Below are positions 1,649 to 14,065 of a DNA stretch of 21,259 nt, in pieces (the first letter of the stretch is position 1; every line of letters begins with the position of its first letter). The DNA comes from a virus. The stretch spans positions 1-21,259 of the IMG/VR virus record IMGVR_UViG_3300037042_004552; one strand, written 5' to 3'. The position numbers were made by a program, and so were the translations under genes. The notes beneath the pieces were generated by a model. It was not told the DNA's origin. It searched no databases and saw nothing but the letters and a program-made list of their open reading frames with translations.

Positions 1649-1767
1649 CGCCCGTACTTACCACAGCGGACGCAGACGATGAAGTCGGTGACCGGAGCGC
1701 CGCGTTGCTCGCGTGTCGCCCGGTGGCCGAACCAACGACACCACAGCCTGCGCCACAACGGGGGCAT
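1645..1767 (-). CDS. 40-aa zinc-knuckle miniprotein
   Basis: ATG at 1767 overlaps the stop of the methyltransferase gene (TGATG), and the stop overlaps the start of the next small gene (ATGA). The protein begins MPPLWRRLWCRWFGH and ends FIVCVRCGKYGR. The pattern Cys-x4-His, then CxxCG near the C terminus, matches a recurrent type of tiny phage zinc-binding protein in which an N-terminal Cys/His pair and a C-terminal CxxC form one site. The molecular role of that type is not known to me. Coupling at both ends indicates it is translated with the methyltransferase and the small membrane protein. Confidence 0.6.
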   Translation of the reverse strand: MPPLWRRLWCRWFGHRATREQRGAPVTDFIVCVRCGKYGR

Positions 1768-3140
1768 CACAGACCAGCCGCCGCGTCGATGCGGGCCTTC
1801 GCGATGGCGACGTACTCAGGCTCTCGCTCAACGCCCACGAACCCGAACCCGAGTCGCTTGCACGCCATGCCCGTGGTGCCGGACCCGAGAAACGGGTCGA
1901 GTACCCAGCCGCCCGGGGGTGTGACGAGGCGCACGAGCCATTCCATGAGCGCGACCGGCTTCACGGTCGGATGGTGGTTCCGCCGCTGCTCCCCGCCCCG
2001 GTTGCGCGGGTTGTTGGCCCCGGGGGCGTCTTCCTCGCGGCCTTCGTCCTGCTTGAAAGCGATCAGGTGCTCGGTCCCAAGGTCACGTTCTCGCCTGCTG
2101 GTCTTGGCGCTGTAGAAGAATCTGGAGGCACCGCCAGAGGAGGCGCTTTGAACATCCAATGCGGCCCCAGCTTCTTCGTCGAGCACCACGTTCGCGGGCC
2201 AGCGACCTTGGGTTGAGGAGTCGGTCATACGCCCGCTCCCCTTGACGTACCCACTCATCTCGCCGCTGTACCCGGCGAGGGCTGAAGCCGGAGCGCGATT
2301 GTACTTATCGGTCGTTGCGATCCGCGTCCCGTCGATGTTGAGCGCGCCCGTGCCCCACTTGAGCACGTTCGCGGCCACGGTCCCTTCCAAGGGCTTGCGC
2401 GCCAGCACGATGGGCTCGAAGGCAGGCTTGAGTGCAGTCCCCCACCCGTCCCACTGCTTCGCGAGGTCGCTCGCTGGCCCGCCCAATTTCGCAAATTCGT
2501 AAACCTTCCGCCGCTGTGCCCCCTGTTCCACGTTCGCCCGCGCCATCCCCGGAGCCCGCTGGACGCCAATCACCTCGCGCACGGCCCCGGTAACCCGGTC
2601 TACATCCTTTCCGATGTTGCGCGACTTGGGGAAGCCGGTTCCGTAGAGCCACATCAGGCTGTCCCGGATCTCGAACCCAGCGTCCTCAAGTGCGGACGCG
2701 AGGCGGTGGTACGTACGTGAGCCACCGAACGCCACGAGGTGGCCACCGGGCTTGAGCACTCGCAGCGCCTCCTTCGCCCACGCGAGGTGCCACGCCTGCA
2801 TCGCCACCCACCGCGAGTTGTCCACGCGCACGTCAGGCTCAGGGCACTGGCAAGGCGAGCCCCCGTGCGTCAGGTGGCCGCACTTCGCGCAGCGTTTGTC
2901 GTTCCAGCCTCTGTTGGAGGGCCACGCCGTCTGGCGCTCTCCGATGCCCGGTTTCGAGATCGTACCGGAACCGTCTGTTCCGAAGGCCCCAATCCGGTCC
3001 CACTCCTTCCCCATGAACTCCAGACCGTAGGGTGGGTCGCAGACCACCGCGTCGATGGAATTCGGGGCGAACGTCTTGAGCACTTCCACGCAGTCGCCCG
3101 TGAACACGAACGTGCGAGGGTCGAGGACATCAGGGGTCAT
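1767..3140 (-). CDS. Site-specific DNA methyltransferase, DPPY type
   Basis: This is an S-adenosylmethionine-dependent DNA methyltransferase. The catalytic motif DPPY is at residues 35-38 (DAVVCDPPYGLEF). The cofactor motif DPFLGSGTTG is near the C terminus (about 415-424) and is followed by GVEREPEYVAIAKARI. Catalytic motif before cofactor motif is the order of the beta class (N4-cytosine or N6-adenine). A Cys cluster (CAKCG, then CQC, about residues 80-102) may bind zinc. The target site cannot be read from sequence, and there is no paired restriction gene nearby, so protection of viral DNA or an epigenetic role is more likely than a restriction system. The frame opens at ATG 3161, which overlaps the polymerase stop (ATGA), but GGAGA lies just before ATG 3140, so I place the start there, giving 457 aa. 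Confidence 0.9.
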   Translation of the reverse strand: MTPDVLDPRTFVFTGDCVEVLKTFAPNSIDAVVCDPPYGLEFMGKEWDRIGAFGTDGSGTISKPGIGERQTAWPSNRGWNDKRCAKCGHLTHGGSPCQCPEPDVRVDNSRWVAMQAWHLAWAKEALRVLKPGGHLVAFGGSRTYHRLASALEDAGFEIRDSLMWLYGTGFPKSRNIGKDVDRVTGAVREVIGVQRAPGMARANVEQGAQRRKVYEFAKLGGPASDLAKQWDGWGTALKPAFEPIVLARKPLEGTVAANVLKWGTGALNIDGTRIATTDKYNRAPASALAGYSGEMSGYVKGSGRMTDSSTQGRWPANVVLDEEAGAALDVQSASSGGASRFFYSAKTSRRERDLGTEHLIAFKQDEGREEDAPGANNPRNRGGEQRRNHHPTVKPVALMEWLVRLVTPPGGWVLDPFLGSGTTGMACKRLGFGFVGVEREPEYVAIAKARIDAAAGL

Positions 3141-3157
3141 TGGGCCGTCTCCGTGGA

Positions 3158-5371
3158 TCATGTCTTGTCGAGGTGAGTCGCGATGGCGGGGGTGTCAGCG
3201 GGGAGCCGCGCTTCGGGGTGATACCCGATTGCGCGCTCGAATCCAGCCCCGGGCGCAATCTCGAACGTCTGCGAGAGGACTTCCTGCATGACTTGGCCCG
3301 CGCGCACCGCGTACTCGTCCGGGCACTCGGCTGTGAGTGCGTCGTGGACCTGCTGGACAATCTGCGCTGCGCCGCCCGTCTCCCGATCGAAGATTTCCTG
3401 AATCACGACCGTGTTCCTGTTCATCCACGCGGCGACGCCGGACTGAATCGGCGTGTTCAACATCTCGTTCCGCTGGTAGCCGCCCCGGAAGTTGCGGACG
3501 CGCCCAGAGATGGGGCACTTGTAGTGGCCGACAGCCTTGGTGGCCTGCGAGATGCGATCCCACCACGAGATGACCCCGGGCCGCAGCTTCTTCCAGACAA
3601 CGCGCAGGGCCTGCACCTCCGAGAGCGTGATGCCCGGGAACATGAGGTCGCTCGTGTCCGGGTCACGCTTGGACCGCAGCACCCGGTACAGCGTCTCCTC
3701 CTCGGCCCCGTACGCGGACCCGAACTCGTAGTTCTTCGCGAGCGTGCGCGTCGGTTTCCATTTCTTCTTCGGCACTACTGGGAACGCATCGTAGGCCCCC
3801 GGCTTGAGCCCCAGCGACTCCACGACGGCGGTTCGCAGGTAGTCAGCGGTCGCCTCGTTGATGTTGTCCGCAGCCTCGGGCGGGCACTGCACGCGGAACA
3901 GCATGGACGCGTTCACCGTGTGAACGTTGATGTCCTTCTCGTACATCGACAGGAGCGACTTCTCGTTGGCGTAGTACGCGATGAGCCGCAGTTCGGCCTG
4001 CGACAAGTCGATGCCAACCAGCTTCCAACCCTTCGGCGCGTAGAAGATTTTCTTGACGCGGCCCGGGAGGTTCTGGGCGTTCGGGGACGACCCGAAGCGG
4101 CCCGTGACCGGGAGGAGTTTCCACGACGGGTGAAAGCGGCCCGTCTTGTTCAAGACCCCGAGCCCTTCGATGAACGTGCCCAAGAACTTCTGCGCCTGCC
4201 GGAATTCGGTCAGCGCACGCAGCGCGTGCTTCTGCTCGTCCGAGTCTGCGGCGACGTCGAGGAGCATCAGAGCCTCTTTGTCGGTGGCCGCGAGCCCGGA
4301 CGCGGTTTCCTTCACGACCGGGAGCTTGAGCTTGTCGAACAGGAGCCAGCGAAGCTGTGCGGGCTTCGCCGGGTCGAACGACGAGCCGCCGATGCCGCGC
4401 AGGGTCGAGATTGCGTGCGCCATCTGGAGCTTCAACTGCGGGGCGAGCCCGATGGGCTTTCCGTTCGCGTCGAGCTTCTCGGAGTCGCGGCGCTCGTAGT
4501 CCACTGCGATGCCCCGGATGGTCGCGCGGGCCATGATTTGCGCGAGTTGCAGTTCGTTCCGGTACAGCGCGCCGAGCCCTTCCATCTCCACGGACGCGAG
4601 CAAGGGCGGCAGCACGCGCATCGTCACGAGGATGTCCCGCAGGTTGTACGAGCGGAGGATGCCCTCGTCCATGTCGAGCCAGCCGTCGCCGCCCTTCACG
4701 TCGTCCTTCCAGTACCTGTTGTCGGTGTAGCGCGAACCGACGAACCCAAGGTTCTGCGGCAGTTCGGCGTCGAGGACGTGGTGCGCCTGCATCGTGTCCT
4801 GTGTCCAGCCGTTGACCGGAACCCCGTGCGCCCACATGACCACGGTGTCGAACGCGCCGTTGTGGCAGCACTTTTCGATCCACGGTGACCCCAGCAACAG
4901 CTTCAGGAACTCGCGCACGACGCACTCGTCGCCCGGGGACCAGTACGGCGAGCCGCCCCGGCGACACATCGGCAGGCACAGCACGCGCTCAACACGTCGC
5001 CCCGTGCGCTTGGACTCGACCACGTCCACGTACCCCATGCCGACGCACAGGAGCTTGCAGTCAAGCTGGTGTTCGCCGCACGTCTCGACGTCAAAGATGA
5101 GCGGACAGAAGCGCCCCTCGCTCGCGGCGGCGACGATGGGGCCTGCGAACTCGGCGACGTCTTCCAACGTCGGGAACTGCCAACGAAGACGGCCAACCGA
5201 GTCAGTCTCCCAGATGATGCGCTCGTCCCACAGCGGAGAAGTCGAGGTGAGGCGCACCGCCTTCTGGAAGTCTTCCCCGACCACGGTCGCGAACTTCGCG
5301 AGACCGCCGTGGTCGTCTGCGCCACCGGCCTTCAACATGAACGCGGGGTGCAGCGTGGGGACCAGAATCAT
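3158..5371 (-). CDS. DNA polymerase, family A, with 3'-5' exonuclease and a glycosylase-like N-terminal tip
   Basis: A 737-aa replicative-type family A polymerase. Exonuclease residues are visible: Asp94/Glu96 (FDVET), Asn171-Asp175 (HNGAFD) and the YxxxD motif Tyr242-Asp246. Polymerase motif A is GIDLSQAELR (Asp455), motif B is RTLAKNYEFGSAYG (Arg542, Lys546, Tyr554) and motif C is QVHDALTAE (His676, Asp677). The usual Glu after HD is Ala678. ATG 5371 is chosen because GAGGTG lies 7 bases upstream and the codon overlaps the stop of the 71-aa gene (ATGA). The same frame is open to 5560, but residues encoded there look like a shadow of the 71-aa gene. The first 40 residues (LVPTLHPAFMLKAGG through EDFQKAVR) match the C-terminal end of family 4-like uracil-DNA glycosylases, not a polymerase. 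Confidence 0.95.
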   Translation of the reverse strand: MILVPTLHPAFMLKAGGADDHGGLAKFATVVGEDFQKAVRLTSTSPLWDERIIWETDSVGRLRWQFPTLEDVAEFAGPIVAAASEGRFCPLIFDVETCGEHQLDCKLLCVGMGYVDVVESKRTGRRVERVLCLPMCRRGGSPYWSPGDECVVREFLKLLLGSPWIEKCCHNGAFDTVVMWAHGVPVNGWTQDTMQAHHVLDAELPQNLGFVGSRYTDNRYWKDDVKGGDGWLDMDEGILRSYNLRDILVTMRVLPPLLASVEMEGLGALYRNELQLAQIMARATIRGIAVDYERRDSEKLDANGKPIGLAPQLKLQMAHAISTLRGIGGSSFDPAKPAQLRWLLFDKLKLPVVKETASGLAATDKEALMLLDVAADSDEQKHALRALTEFRQAQKFLGTFIEGLGVLNKTGRFHPSWKLLPVTGRFGSSPNAQNLPGRVKKIFYAPKGWKLVGIDLSQAELRLIAYYANEKSLLSMYEKDINVHTVNASMLFRVQCPPEAADNINEATADYLRTAVVESLGLKPGAYDAFPVVPKKKWKPTRTLAKNYEFGSAYGAEEETLYRVLRSKRDPDTSDLMFPGITLSEVQALRVVWKKLRPGVISWWDRISQATKAVGHYKCPISGRVRNFRGGYQRNEMLNTPIQSGVAAWMNRNTVVIQEIFDRETGGAAQIVQQVHDALTAECPDEYAVRAGQVMQEVLSQTFEIAPGAGFERAIGYHPEARLPADTPAIATHLDKT

Positions 5372-5583
5372 GGACGCACCTCGGTGTGCTTGACCGAGCG
5401 CCCGGCCGAGTACAGGCGGCAGGCATCCGTGCCGGGTTTGCCCATCACGTACGCAGCCGAGTAGCGCGATACCCACATGCCGCAGTTGCTGAGAGCCTTG
5501 TTGGCCCGCCAGCGGAACGTGTACTTGCACGCGGGCGAGTGTCGCGTGGGCTTCATCCACACGACGCGGTCGGACTCACTCAT
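5368..5583 (-). CDS. 71-aa protein inserted between glycosylase and polymerase genes
   Basis: ATG 5583 lies 8 bases inside the end of the glycosylase gene and has GGGAG upstream. The stop overlaps the polymerase ATG (ATGA). GC-rich third codon positions in this frame, and not in the polymerase frame that runs through the same bases, show this is the coding frame. The protein is basic, rich in Trp, Tyr, Arg and Ser, with three cysteines (PACKYTFRW, LSNCGMW and DACRLYS) and a histidine in RHSPAC, so a small metal-binding or nucleic-acid-binding fold is possible. I do not recognise it. Its position exactly at the break of the glycosylase domain makes it either an insertion or a bridging subunit. 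It has no recognisable nuclease motif. Confidence 0.75.
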   Translation of the reverse strand: MSESDRVVWMKPTRHSPACKYTFRWRANKALSNCGMWVSRYSAAYVMGKPGTDACRLYSAGRSVKHTEVRP

Positions 5584-6220
5584 CGGACTTCTCCCTGATG
5601 TGTTCTTCGGTGATGACGGAGCCGCGATACTTCATCACGCTCATCGAGCGCCCCGGCTTCCCATGCAAGAGGCCGAGCGCGAAGTTGCCCATCGGCATCA
5701 CGACGGTTTCCAGTTGCCGCGACTGCGCCATAACTTCGACGGACGCAATCTCGGCCTTGAGGCGCGGGGCACAGCACTCGAACGGGTTCGCGACTTCGCG
5801 CACCGACTCGGCAAGCGGGGTGCCGGGGTACGCATTCGCGAAGTCTTTCGCGGCCCTGCGCCGCGAGACGTTCTCTTTGCGCCACCACGCGAGCCAGTTC
5901 TTGAGTTCGTACCGCTTGCGCCCTTCGGCGTTCGGAACCTCGGGCCTGCACAGGAGCGCGCTCGTCACGAGGGCGACCTCGGAGCGGCGAATCCCTTGGT
6001 TCCACAGGATCTCATCGAGCTTCACGCCAGCCGCGCCTGCGAACAGTTCTCCGCGCTTCACGTCACCTGCGCCCGGCGCGTCGCCCACGAACACGAGCGG
6101 GTGTATCGCCCCGGCTGCCACGTTCGAGAACTTGGGCGGGATGATGACGGCGCGTTGGACAGTACGGAGAGGGCACAGGTCACAACGGGCACCCCATAGG
6201 CGGGGATCGTAAGCGGCCAT
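5576..6220 (-). CDS. Uracil-DNA glycosylase, family 4-like, lacking the C-terminal His motif
   Basis: A 214-aa protein. Iron-sulfur cluster cysteines are C13 and C16 (ARCDLCPL), C91 (LLCRPE) and C149 or C150 (PFECCAPRL). The uracil-pocket motif is GDAPGAGDVKRGELFAGAAG (residues 46-65), the equivalent of GEAPG in the family. Near the end VVMPMGNFALGLLHG and a following KYRGSVI correspond to the ALG and KLRG strands. The family then has a conserved HP-x-x-L motif, but this protein stops about 10 residues later. The missing piece is at the start of the polymerase gene 205 bp downstream and in the same frame. The stretch between the third and fourth cysteines, about 58 residues, is longer than usual. 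ATG 6220 is chosen over an upstream ATG at 6304 because GGAG sits 7 bases before it and the upstream region is structured non-coding DNA. Confidence 0.85.
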   Translation of the reverse strand: MAAYDPRLWGARCDLCPLRTVQRAVIIPPKFSNVAAGAIHPLVFVGDAPGAGDVKRGELFAGAAGVKLDEILWNQGIRRSEVALVTSALLCRPEVPNAEGRKRYELKNWLAWWRKENVSRRRAAKDFANAYPGTPLAESVREVANPFECCAPRLKAEIASVEVMAQSRQLETVVMPMGNFALGLLHGKPGRSMSVMKYRGSVITEEHIREKSDE

Positions 6221-6237
6221 GAAAGCTCCAGAAGGAA

Positions 6238-6476
6238 AGTGCCCCGGTTTCGACGGGGCCACTCGTCCCCTTCTGTCGCTGGGGAACAGCGGTGTCTTCG
6301 ACACTGAATCGCCGCCCAGTCCCCCGAACGGGAGCTTCTTTCCACGGAGAGCTTTTTCCGGGGAACTGGGCGGCGAATAAATGGAGGAGGTAGCTCACAG
6401 GCAGGGAGGGCACCCGGCTACATGTGTCTCGGGGGAGACAGCTACCTCACTCCTCTTTTGATTTGGTTGTGCCCTC
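6238..6476 (-). ncRNA. Highly structured intergenic RNA candidate upstream of the glycosylase gene
   Basis: The gap between the ssDNA-binding gene and the glycosylase gene is a chain of inverted repeats. They are AGTGCCCCG/CGGGGC(c)ACT at 6238-6263; CGCTG/CAGCG at 6277-6291; GTGTC-TTC-GACAC at 6292-6304; a 12-bp perfect arm TCGCCGCCCAGT (6309-6320) with 6365-6376, extended by CCCC/GGGG; GAGGTAGCT (6387-6395) with 6440-6448; TGTCTC-GGGG-GAGACA (6425-6440); and GAGGGCAC (6406-6413) with 6469-6476, which crosses the previous 9-bp stem like a pseudoknot. No ORF fits here. It could be a leader RNA, a stand-alone small RNA or an origin-type DNA structure. Strand is inferred from the flanking genes. 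Confidence 0.45.
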
Positions 6477-6483
6477 ACTCTGT

Positions 6484-6501
6484 CACGCGGCAGTCCGCGT
6501 G
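6484..6501 (-). terminator. Hairpin after the ssDNA-binding gene
   Basis: A perfect 7-bp stem (CACGCGG / CCGCGTG) with a 4-base loop starts 10 bases after the stop of the ssDNA-binding gene on the minus strand. No T-run follows, so it is a weak terminator or an mRNA 3' end structure. Confidence 0.4.
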
Positions 6502-7403: not shown

Positions 7404-7625
7404 CTACAGCTTGCACATGCGAACGGGCTTCCGTTCGCGGAGCTTCCAAATTTCCTTCCGGGTGCCGCTGCGCTCGACGCGGCCTTCTCCCCGGAGTGAT
7501 TCCAGCGCGTACTCAACCTGCCATTCCGGCGCGTGCGTCAACTGCCCGAGCGTGCAAAGCGAAATGGGAAGGCCGACTGCGAGTTGCGCCACGACCTTGT
7601 CCTTGAGCGCGGCGAGACGGCTCAC
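7404..7625 (-). CDS. Small winged-helix protein
   Basis: A 73-aa protein starting at GTG 7625, which overlaps the stop of the ATPase gene (GTGA), with GGAGG 6 bases upstream. The sequence reads as three helices and a wing: LKDKVVAQLAVGLPISL, then LGQLTHAPEWQVEYALESLR, then GRVERSGTRKEIWKL. This is typical of a winged helix-turn-helix such as the MarR or phage initiation-type fold. It may bind DNA or act in the recombination complex encoded around it. The exact family is not recognised. Confidence 0.65.
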   Translation of the reverse strand: MSRLAALKDKVVAQLAVGLPISLCTLGQLTHAPEWQVEYALESLRGEGRVERSGTRKEIWKLRERKPVRMCKL

Positions 7626-8455
7626 CGCTGGCCTCCGCGAACCGCGCGGAGGATGAACGCAAGGTCCGGGGGACAGGGCTCAGGGAGGAGGTGCGAGAAT
7701 CGCCCGCCCGCGTTCTGCCCGTTCCACGGGACGCTGTGAAGGAGCCGCGAGTAGCCGTGCTGATCGGCACCTGCCGTGCCCTTGCCAATCATGCGCTTTT
7801 CGAGCGTGAAGACGTGCTGCGCCCGGCCCGCAATCGTGCGCGCGAAGCGTCTGCCTGCGATGTCGGGAGCCGCGAGATCCACGCGCCCGTCGTCGTTCTG
7901 CGTGGGCTCACCGGCCCACGCCAGCCAGACCACGGGGAAGTCGAGGTCAGCGAGCCGCCACCAGATCTCGTTAAACTGCGTGTACATCGTCTGGTAGTGC
8001 GAGCGCGGGTCCGGGTTCTTGCTCCCACGTCGTGCGTCTTCCAGCATCCGGTAGCTGGCGGTGCTCGCACAGTCGAATACGAGCGAGCCGTAGTTCTGGC
8101 GAATGACCGGGAGGTTCTTCTCGACCATGTCCACGGTGGAGCGAATCTTGTCGAACCACCGCGACCCGGCCTGTTCGTTCACGCGAATGGCGTGAACGGC
8201 GAAGCCCATGTTCAAGCACGAGTCGGGGCCGGACGGGTCCACTGCGAGGATGAGCGGCTGGTGGTGAGGCTCAGGGAACCCGAACAGCGAAACCGCGAGC
8301 GTGGACTTCCCGTCTTTCTCCCTGCCCGTCACGATGACGGACGGCGCGCGGTAGTAGGTCTGGTCGATGCGCGTGATGCCGACCAGAGGTGAAGGTGTGC
8401 CGATAAGCGTCGGCACGACCGCAGGGGGTGGAGCCCCGGGATTCGTCTGATTCAT
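7622..8455 (-). CDS. Sak4-like RecA-fold ATPase (phage recombinase)
   Basis: A 277-aa P-loop ATPase. Walker A is GREKDGKST (residues 44-52) and Walker B is SLVFDCAS (about 124-131). The rest (DLDFPVVWLAWAGEP, then RVDLAAPDIAGRRFARTIAG) follows the layout of phage Sak4/RadA-like ATPases that load on ssDNA and promote annealing. The adjoining ssDNA-binding protein and the RecB-like nuclease support a recombination role. ATG 8455 is preceded by GGAGG 8 bases upstream. A proline-rich N-terminal extension of about 20 residues precedes the core. A plain motor or packaging ATPase is a less likely alternative, because the protein is short and lacks helicase or FtsK features. Confidence 0.75.
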   Translation of the reverse strand: MNQTNPGAPPPAVVPTLIGTPSPLVGITRIDQTYYRAPSVIVTGREKDGKSTLAVSLFGFPEPHHQPLILAVDPSGPDSCLNMGFAVHAIRVNEQAGSRWFDKIRSTVDMVEKNLPVIRQNYGSLVFDCASTASYRMLEDARRGSKNPDPRSHYQTMYTQFNEIWWRLADLDFPVVWLAWAGEPTQNDDGRVDLAAPDIAGRRFARTIAGRAQHVFTLEKRMIGKGTAGADQHGYSRLLHSVPWNGQNAGGRFSHLLPEPCPPDLAFILRAVRGGQR

Positions 8456-10597: not shown

Positions 10598-10757
10598 TGT
10601 GCGACCCCGACACCGACCGCGACCACGACCACGACCCCGACCGCGACTGCGACTGCGACTGCGACCACGACCACGACCGCGACCGCGACCCCGACCCCGA
10701 CCCCGACCACGACTGCGACCACGACCACGGCCAAACCAGCGCTCTGGCGATCCTCAT
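10590..10757 (-). CDS. 55-aa Ser-X dipeptide repeat protein
   Basis: ATG 10757 has the strongest ribosome site in the window (AGGAGGAAAAC just upstream) and follows the helicase gene. After a short N terminus (MRIARALVWP), 21 consecutive X-Ser dipeptides follow, with X being Trp, Gln, Gly, Arg or, once, Val. The protein ends HNE. Every Ser codon in the repeat is TCG. Eight of 55 residues are Trp. The stop (TAA 10590-10592) overlaps the start of the 99-aa gene, which supports this frame over the Val/Ala frame that is also open. Function is unknown. It may be a low-complexity nucleic-acid or surface binding peptide, or a leader needed to couple translation of the next gene. Confidence 0.6.
   Translation of the reverse strand: MRIARALVWPWSWSQSWSGSGSGSRSRSWSWSQSQSQSRSGSWSWSRSVSGSHNE
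10602..10727. repeat. Hexanucleotide tandem repeat, 21 units (NNGTCG on the minus strand, mostly)
   Basis: A 126-bp array of period 6, with the fixed part TCG and a variable triplet before it. It lies entirely within the 55-aa gene and encodes X-Ser pairs. Three adjacent GGGGTC units form a G-rich stretch. Unit gain or loss keeps the reading frame. Confidence 0.9.
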
Positions 10758-12907: not shown

Positions 12908-14065
12908 ATGAGTCGGTTTCTCGGGCCGTGGCGGCGTTTCTTTCTGCAAGCCACGGACGCTCCGCACGAATACTGCGAAGCGGCGGGGTTGATGTGTCTG
13001 TCGAACATCGCGATTGGTCGGCGCGAACTTGAAGTCGGACGCGGCATTCGTCCGAACATGTTCATGATGCTGGCCGGGGACTCCTCGGTCGCGCGCAAGT
13101 CCACGAGCGTGAACTTCTGCAAGCTGATGACGGAGGAGGTCGAGCCGGATCGCGTGGGGCCGCGCGACTACACGGTAGAGGGGCTGCTGAAATGGATGGC
13201 CGAGAAAGACCCCGCGACGAAGAAGGGCCGCAACAAGGTGGTGCTGTTCGCGGAGGAGTTCGGCTCTGACTTGGCCCGCATCGAAGCGTACGCCTCGACC
13301 ATGCCCACGGATTTCTGTGCGCTCTACGACGGCGAGTCGTTCGAGAAGATCCGCAGCGGTTCGGCTCCGCTCTCGGTCGAGCGCCCGCGCGTGAACCTGT
13401 TCGCGGCGGCGGCGTACCAGATGCTCTCGTCGCACTTGAAGGCGAAGGATTGGCTCAACGGCTTCCTCATGCGCTTCGTGTACGTCGCGCCCACGGTTGC
13501 GACCATGCGCCAAAAGAACTACCTCGCGCCGACTTGGCCGCAGCGCGACTACGACAGCGCGCGGGTCGCGCTCACGGTCCTGCGCGACGACATCGTGCGT
13601 GCCCGGTTCATGCGCCTGCCGTTCTCACCTGCGGCCAAGCAGGAGATGACGAAGTGGTCGATGTCCGTGGACACGTTCGCTGCCGGGTTGCAGGACTCGC
13701 TGGGCGCGAAACACACCTACGTTAGCCGCTTCTCGGTGAACGTGCAAAAGATGGCGCTGCTCTACCAGTTGGACGACGACCCGAACGCGCCTGTGGGAAT
13801 CAACGCAGTGCGGCAGGCTTTGGAGTTCGCCGGACAAGTCTGCTGGCCCAGCTTCGCCCATGTCTACGAGCGCACGACGTCGGACGATTTCATGGCGACC
13901 CTGTCCACGGCGTTGGCGGCGCTCCGCGAGGGGCCGATGATGAAGCGCGATTTGGAGACGCGGTTCAGGTCGCGGGTCGTGCGCGCTGTCATCGACCACC
14001 TCGTCTGGAGCGGCCACGCCGTTTTGACAAAAGGCGAGAACGGCGAACTCCTGACTCTGAAGTGA
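12908..14065 (+). CDS. DUF3987-like replication ATPase
   Basis: A 385-aa P-loop protein from ATG 12908, with GGAG about 5 bases upstream. The nucleotide loop is GDSSVARKST (residues 57-66), where Arg replaces the Gly before Lys. This is the form usual in DUF3987-type phage and plasmid proteins. Walker B is probably VVLFAEEFGS (111-120). The region MPTDFCALYDGESFEKIRSG and ERPRVNLFAAAAYQML (about 137-180) also follow that family. Residues about 335-385 form a winged-helix-like end. DUF3987 proteins are often encoded with primases or replication initiators and are probably RecA-fold helicases or loaders. No primase domain is fused here. The gene is directly followed by the AT-rich candidate origin. 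Confidence 0.75.
   Translation: MSRFLGPWRRFFLQATDAPHEYCEAAGLMCLSNIAIGRRELEVGRGIRPNMFMMLAGDSSVARKSTSVNFCKLMTEEVEPDRVGPRDYTVEGLLKWMAEKDPATKKGRNKVVLFAEEFGSDLARIEAYASTMPTDFCALYDGESFEKIRSGSAPLSVERPRVNLFAAAAYQMLSSHLKAKDWLNGFLMRFVYVAPTVATMRQKNYLAPTWPQRDYDSARVALTVLRDDIVRARFMRLPFSPAAKQEMTKWSMSVDTFAAGLQDSLGAKHTYVSRFSVNVQKMALLYQLDDDPNAPVGINAVRQALEFAGQVCWPSFAHVYERTTSDDFMATLSTALAALREGPMMKRDLETRFRSRVVRAVIDHLVWSGHAVLTKGENGELLTLK

Follow-up and report, generated by a model that had tools for sequence, protein, structure and literature searches.

The viral DNA analyzed here, hereafter the window, covers positions 1 to 21,259 of the IMG/VR record IMGVR_UViG_3300037042_004552 (21,259 nucleotides in all), and its locus of interest is a run of three overlapping genes on the minus strand: a 214-residue open reading frame (ORF) resembling uracil-DNA glycosylase (UDG), a gene of 71 amino acids (aa), and a family A DNA polymerase gene. 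A sequence-only reading of this DNA had proposed that the glycosylase gene was broken ahead of its conserved HP motif, that the missing part begins the polymerase, and that both parts, lying in one frame with a stop and the 71-aa gene between them, descend from a glycosylase-polymerase fusion. The present analysis sustains that proposal in its main points, and the coordinates of the features are collected in Table 1.

Table 1. Features of the divided glycosylase-polymerase locus in the window, followed by the small genes that interrupt related polymerases in other contigs (nt, nucleotides).
Feature	Position	Strand	Details	Source
UDG large fragment	6220-5576	minus	214 aa plus stop	ORF list
Fe-S cysteines of the UDG fragment			C13, C16, C91, C150
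Motif 1 and pocket residues of the UDG fragment			motif 1 GDAPG; F60 (F54 of Tth UDGa); S87 at the pocket Asn N80
C-terminus of the UDG fragment			14 residues past the conserved RG
Shine-Dalgarno-like AGGGAG	5591..5596	minus	7 nt 5' of the 71-aa ATG	sequence
8-nt overlap ATGAGTGA	5576..5583	minus	71-aa start over UDG stop	sequence
71-aa gene in the break	5583-5368	minus	between the UDG and polymerase ORFs
Shine-Dalgarno-like GAGGTG	5377..5382	minus	5 nt 5' of the polymerase ATG	sequence
4-nt overlap ATGA	5368..5371	minus	polymerase start over 71-aa stop	sequence
Family A DNA polymerase with 3'-5' exonuclease	5371-3158	minus	737 aa; codon 1 is the ATG over the 71-aa stop
UDG tail on the polymerase	5240..5371	minus	first 44 residues, MILVPTLHPAFML...EDFQKAVR: last strand, HP motif, C-terminal helix
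Motif 2, HP	5345..5350	minus	His8-Pro9 of the polymerase ORF; corresponds to H155 of Tth UDGa, the leaving-group stabilizer (PMC5387724)
Exonuclease motif I, D-V-E-T	5081..5092	minus	marks the end of the UDG-linker region; invariant D94, E96, T97
N6/N4 DNA methyltransferase	1767-3161		PF01555, phrog_67; downstream of the polymerase, start overlaps the polymerase stop by ATGA
Exonuclease-break gene, L094/L106	L094:2290-2385		30 aa, membrane-like
Exonuclease-break gene, L079	5350-5570		about 57 aa, Cys-rich
Exonuclease-break gene, L105/L108			about 87 aa
Exonuclease-break gene, L107			about 80 aa

Sequence, fold and uracil pocket of the divided glycosylase

All the elements that had been ascribed to the 214-aa gene are present in it, namely the four iron-sulfur (Fe-S) cysteines, the GDAPG motif and the KYRG strand, and it stops before the HP motif as described. 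The 214-aa protein scores above the cut-off of the Pfam UDG profile (PF03167), but the match (E 1.8e-10) covers just positions 10-95 of the 141 in the profile; when the N-terminus of the polymerase is joined to this protein, the match extends to position 124 of 141 (E 2.2e-12). A 262-column profile was constructed from 11 unsplit UDG-polymerase fusions, running from the UDG domain through exonuclease motif I, and on it the two ORFs take up complementary stretches, columns 6-174 for the 214-aa ORF (8e-27) and columns 172-261 for the polymerase ORF (5e-4). MILVPTLHPAF, with which the polymerase begins, lines up with the strand that carries the HP motif in the unsplit UDG-polymerase proteins. This region aligns to glycosylases and not to ordinary polymerase N-termini.

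The polymerase ORF is matched by PF00476 (1.3e-40, 140 bits against a cut-off of 34.3) and by phrog_17 (8e-81), its exonuclease residues D94, E96, T97, N171, D175, Y242 and D246 are among the invariant columns, and its polymerase motifs are retained. The parts stand in the same order as in UDG-PolA fusions (UDG, linker, exonuclease and polymerase, with HP directly before the linker). The window does not hold the UDG and the exonuclease-polymerase in a single ORF as those fusions do; descent from such a fusion is supported.

AlphaFold2 models were computed for the 214-aa protein alone and for the read-through sequence with the TGA read as Trp, using alignments that included 29 locus relatives. 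The 214-aa protein alone reached a predicted local distance difference test (pLDDT) score of 88. In the read-through model the 69-residue spacer is disordered (pLDDT 34-43) and the polymerase tail is ordered, with pLDDT of 70-91 per ten-residue block up to residue 320, and it comprises a strand at 283-288, a short HP helix at 292-298 and a long helix at 304-325. Normalized to the structures of family 4 UDGs, the Foldseek TM-scores are 0.50-0.60 without the tail and increase to 0.64-0.74 with it (1vk2, 0.57 to 0.70; 4zbx, 0.55 to 0.70; 1ui0, 0.53 to 0.67), and therefore the 214-aa protein is not a complete UDG by itself. In the model, the tail of the polymerase takes the place of the strand and HP loop that the UDG fold would otherwise lack. 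The sequence-only reading had named two results that would speak against it, an ordinary polymerase N-terminus and a 214-aa protein modelled as a complete glycosylase; neither was obtained.

With respect to family, the 214-aa protein is most of a family-4-type Fe-S UDG domain, in which the four cysteines are in place and the HP motif with the catalytic His is found on the polymerase ORF. Its scores lie below the NCBIfam cut-offs (TIGR00758, 36.8 bits against 125.3; NF040953, 37 against 250), and the UdgX profile TIGR03914 gives 23.8 bits against a cut-off of 189.95. The pocket of Tth UDGa consists of E41, G42, E47, F54, N80 and H155, where H155 stabilizes the leaving uracil and N80 pairs with uracil, and changes at E41 and N80 strongly lower activity (PMC5387724). 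The corresponding residues of the window are D, A, D, F, S and H, the His being supplied by the polymerase ORF, so that the family 4 residues E41, E47 and N80 are not found. Across 69 alignment rows, E41, N80 and H155 are kept together in 46, N80 in 59 and H155 in 64.

With Ser in place of N80 and Asp in place of both E41 and E47, little or no excision is to be expected. Robust uracil excision by the window module thus appears unlikely, and a recognition or structural (scaffolding) role would be likelier than robust repair, with sensing, weak excision and a purely structural role all open. Among fused UDG domains of other contigs, the HP histidine is replaced in L025 (S), L065 (E), L077 (Q), L083 (S), L012 (A) and L107 (A); these are probably non-catalytic UDG domains kept on polymerases.

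Unsplit relatives and parallel splits

Fused proteins were recovered by tblastn in vir526, Rctr197k, ctfzr933 and ctMlz233, each with the Pfam families UDG and DNA_pol_A. Further relatives were collected with two DNA patterns, one directed at a conserved segment in the exonuclease region, which is blind to the UDG part (57 viral contigs), and one for GA[RK]CDLCPL (28 viral contigs). Single-protein scans of viral contigs with the UDG or the polymerase gave no close relatives, six aligned fusions proved too divergent to scan with, and two aligned sequences yielded nothing but relatives of vir526; the DNA patterns were far more productive. Once duplicates had been removed, there were 68 distinct relatives that span the break site. 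In every one of them a single ORF contains the two parts, and the split is peculiar to the window; a search for ORF starts just before the HP motif gave ten contigs, none of them split there.

These dozens of unsplit relatives, which the sequence-only reading had recommended looking for, strongly support its ancestral glycosylase-polymerase fusion that was split at the HP motif. Because all other relatives are fused at this site, the split is by parsimony the derived state. The loop between the RG strand and the HP histidine measures 14-56 residues in the relatives, and the two ends left in the window add up to 21 (14 + 7), a common length in the set. The polymerase tree places the window within the fused proteins (support of 97/90 for the side with 35 rows), its exact placement being weakly supported. 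Profile and alignment comparisons show an ancestral fusion and a derived split, at a loop tolerant of length changes, with the complementary parts left intact.

In some relatives the N-terminal domain is degenerate or shortened, as in Gordonia phages, which match only columns 133-262 of the fusion profile. In contigs L015, L053, L073 and L092 the UDG-PolA ORFs are 1109-1377 aa long, and in some of them the polymerase region is enlarged by several hundred residues, possibly inteins. The UDG-PolA phage ctfzr933 (contig L006, positions 900-2500) is also annotated with ThyX, a thymidylate synthase and a pyrimidine hydroxymethylase-like gene, a set hinting at a link to modified thymine. Modified thymine is a feature of SPO1.

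A related clade has its UDG-PolA protein split in the exonuclease domain. There, the UDG-exonuclease ORF ends in ...NGQNFDLLVLENHGVVW, the polymerase ORF starts with MKFANCHDTLLAHH, and the UDG domain is whole. Four lineages carry four different small genes in this break, each of which may start across the stop of the preceding ORF (TGGTGA) and ends over the start of the following one (ATGA). Three of the four were scanned against PHROG, with no match, and three against Pfam, with no match above the cut-off; the small genes look interchangeable. The halves are 64-80% identical between lineages, and their ratio of nonsynonymous to synonymous substitution (dN/dS) is about 0.1-0.2 where estimable, synonymous sites being near saturation. 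Both halves are under purifying selection and split UDG-polymerases are therefore maintained, and the comparison of these genes indicates that fission of the UDG-polymerase is tolerated and recurrent. In L090 (1353-1490) and L091 (4160-4345) the gene is split in yet another way, within the polymerase domain and with no full extra gene; there the start of the second ORF overlaps the stop of the first, and this second ORF has a Lys/Arg-rich extension.

The 71-aa gene and its surroundings

No Pfam, PHROG or NCBIfam family matches the 71-aa product, and a search for its family among phages, viral contigs and GTDB genomes yielded a single homologue. This homologue (L063, positions 7436-7705 of a 103,895-base contig) is 36% identical and lies directly upstream of an unsplit UDG-polymerase gene; the Smith-Waterman score of the pair is 114, the best of 2000 shuffles being 50. 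Conserved between the two are the start M-x-R-x-V-W-M-x-P-T and the residues H15, C19, C34 and C55, and these four His/Cys positions suggest a small metal-binding protein. An AAA_24-like gene is located upstream in both viruses, the match in the window being below the Pfam cut-off.

The GC content at third codon positions (GC3) is 0.87 for the 71-aa gene in its own frame, 0.89 for the polymerase and 0.81 for the 214-aa ORF, while the 71-aa region read in the UDG/polymerase frame would give 0.58 or 0.52. On account of this signature and of the homologue that adjoins an unsplit fusion elsewhere, the 71-aa gene is judged to be real, a neighbour gene that lies beside the fusion in the virus of L063 and within it in the window. 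It is a neighbour now sitting in the break, and its membership in the glycosylase is hypothetical.

The UDG and polymerase ORFs do share one frame with a single TGA between them, as had been noted. This agreement means little alone, because a stop-free stretch of 69 codons arises by chance in 20-45% of out-of-frame windows in this DNA. The GAGGTG site supports an independent initiation of the polymerase at 5371.

In the wider surroundings, replication genes of the window are mostly on the minus strand and the direction switches near 12.7 kb. A DUF3987 primase-like gene occupies 12908-14065 on the plus strand, and an array of 21 copies of a GCGACC-like hexamer is found at 10601-10726, just past the end of an SNF2-type helicase gene.

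Origin and possible role of the split

We consider it probable, at about 0.75, that a fused UDG-polymerase ancestor was split by a small gene and that the UDG fold is completed on the polymerase tail, by an assembly in trans that we infer. The ancestor would have been one protein, consisting of a family-4-type Fe-S UDG and a family A polymerase with 3'-5' exonuclease, as in many environmental phages. A small neighbouring gene would then have entered the UDG domain at the variable loop that leads from the RG strand to the HP motif, after which the domain would be made as two polypeptides, the 214-aa fragment and a tail of ~45 aa at the N-terminus of the polymerase, and the three genes may be translated by coupled re-initiation. 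The fragment would dock on the tail, with a complete UDG fold and its polymerase-supplied histidine existing only on the polymerase, and the docked module could serve in template reading or DNA binding, coupling base inspection to replication at the fork.

A more specific form of this proposal is put forward tentatively, at somewhat less than even odds: a glycosylase or base sensor that exists only in the holoenzyme, its active site shared by two polypeptides, as one product of a recurrent settlement of small genes in UDG-PolA genes, with the polymerase continuing as coupled subunits. The halves of the related clade, kept at a dN/dS of about 0.1, provide the precedent for polymerase function in pieces.

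Several observations weigh against the proposed fission and reassembly. The split at the HP site was seen in one genome only and selection on its two parts is not measurable, the branch of the window polymerase is long (1.79 in the polymerase tree), and the read-through model, being a covalent stand-in based on an alignment with fused relatives, gives compatibility and not binding. The three pocket substitutions, E41D, E47D and N80S, also fit a UDG module decaying after the split.

Such decay is the main rival explanation, according to which the UDG fragment is vestigial and its 214-aa ORF is being lost, while the polymerase functions by itself and its N-terminal tail does no harm. Besides the altered pocket, it could draw on the degenerate N-terminal domains of the Gordonia phages and on the loss of the HP histidine in 5 of the 69 alignment rows. 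However, the 214-aa ORF is intact, with the four Fe-S cysteines, F54 and the RG strand kept, a GC3 like that of its neighbours and a confident model; the polymerase tail retains HPAFML and the helix, dispensable for a bare polymerase; and in the exonuclease-split clade both halves are under purifying selection. Decay is rated as unlikely but not negligible.

Far less probable is a joined protein produced by stop read-through or frameshifting, with the 71-aa ORF an accident within a long loop. The single TGA in an otherwise open stretch of one frame, and loops of up to 56 aa in the relatives, would agree with it; but no slippery heptamer is present, the spacer is predicted to be disordered, and the polymerase is provided with a separate start codon and Shine-Dalgarno-like site. 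This explanation was rejected on codon composition, on the chance expectation for the open stretch and on the homologue of the 71-aa product. An assembly or sequencing artefact is rated lower still: the window is a single metagenomic contig of which no independent copy was found, yet the insert is a complete gene whose homologue also adjoins a UDG-polymerase gene, stop and start codons overlap cleanly at its two borders, and other contigs show the same architecture at a different place. Least credible is an intein, split intein or self-splicing intron, which has a parallel in phage polymerase genes with split inteins and a homing endonuclease between the halves (MIJ3 PolB, PMC6892783) but was rejected, given that the 14 residues after the RG strand and the 4 before PTLHP are too short for intein halves, that the 71-aa product matches no endonuclease family in Pfam, PHROG or NCBIfam, and that Rfam gave no match up to E 1 in 3000-6500 and hence no intron model.

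UDG-PolA fusions and split phage polymerases are each already known, and the SPO1 polymerase carries an N-terminal UDG domain. Phage UDG-PolA polymerases (the solved phiLo family-A DNA polymerase, PDB 9qhs; Rctr197k PolA; vir526) have the same domains in the same order as the two ORFs of the window taken together, whereas in the window the UDG domain is divided over two ORFs with a third gene between. With family 4 UDGs (Tth UDGa, 1ui0; TM0511, 1vk2; 4zbx) it has in common the fold, the four cysteines, the HP motif and F54, and differs in being made of two polypeptides, in its three pocket substitutions, in its sub-cut-off NCBIfam scores and in its connection to a polymerase. The UDG and polymerase of vaccinia belong to families different from those of the window. 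The vaccinia holoenzyme E9/A20/D4, in which the UDG D4 is a non-covalent part of the viral polymerase holoenzyme (PMC3946371), is nevertheless a precedent in principle, D4 being a whole UDG that is bridged by A20.

Another polymerase gene interrupted by a second gene is that of MIJ3 PolB, whose two parts, orfs 153/155, carry a split intein and flank an orf for an HNH endonuclease (PMC6892783). The window, by contrast, has neither intein nor endonuclease, its break lies in the accessory UDG domain, and its parts must meet without splicing. The exonuclease-split clade (L079, L094/L106, L105/L108, L107) shares with the window the ancestral protein, a small gene and start/stop overlaps at both borders, and is distinguished by being broken within the exonuclease domain, by having a different small gene in each lineage and by its whole UDG. 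In the open-licence literature, which is weak evidence of absence, no UDG-PolA split inside the UDG domain and no exchange of small genes at a polymerase break was found.

Overall, we present a replicative polymerase gene that is broken by a small non-endonuclease gene in an accessory domain, with a catalytic motif left on the polymerase. Should the parts meet, replication would be physically linked to glycosylase activity or to the reading of uracil. The 68 unsplit relatives, together with the split clade and its four genes, make it testable what role the UDG domain has on a phage polymerase and how essential genes become stably split.

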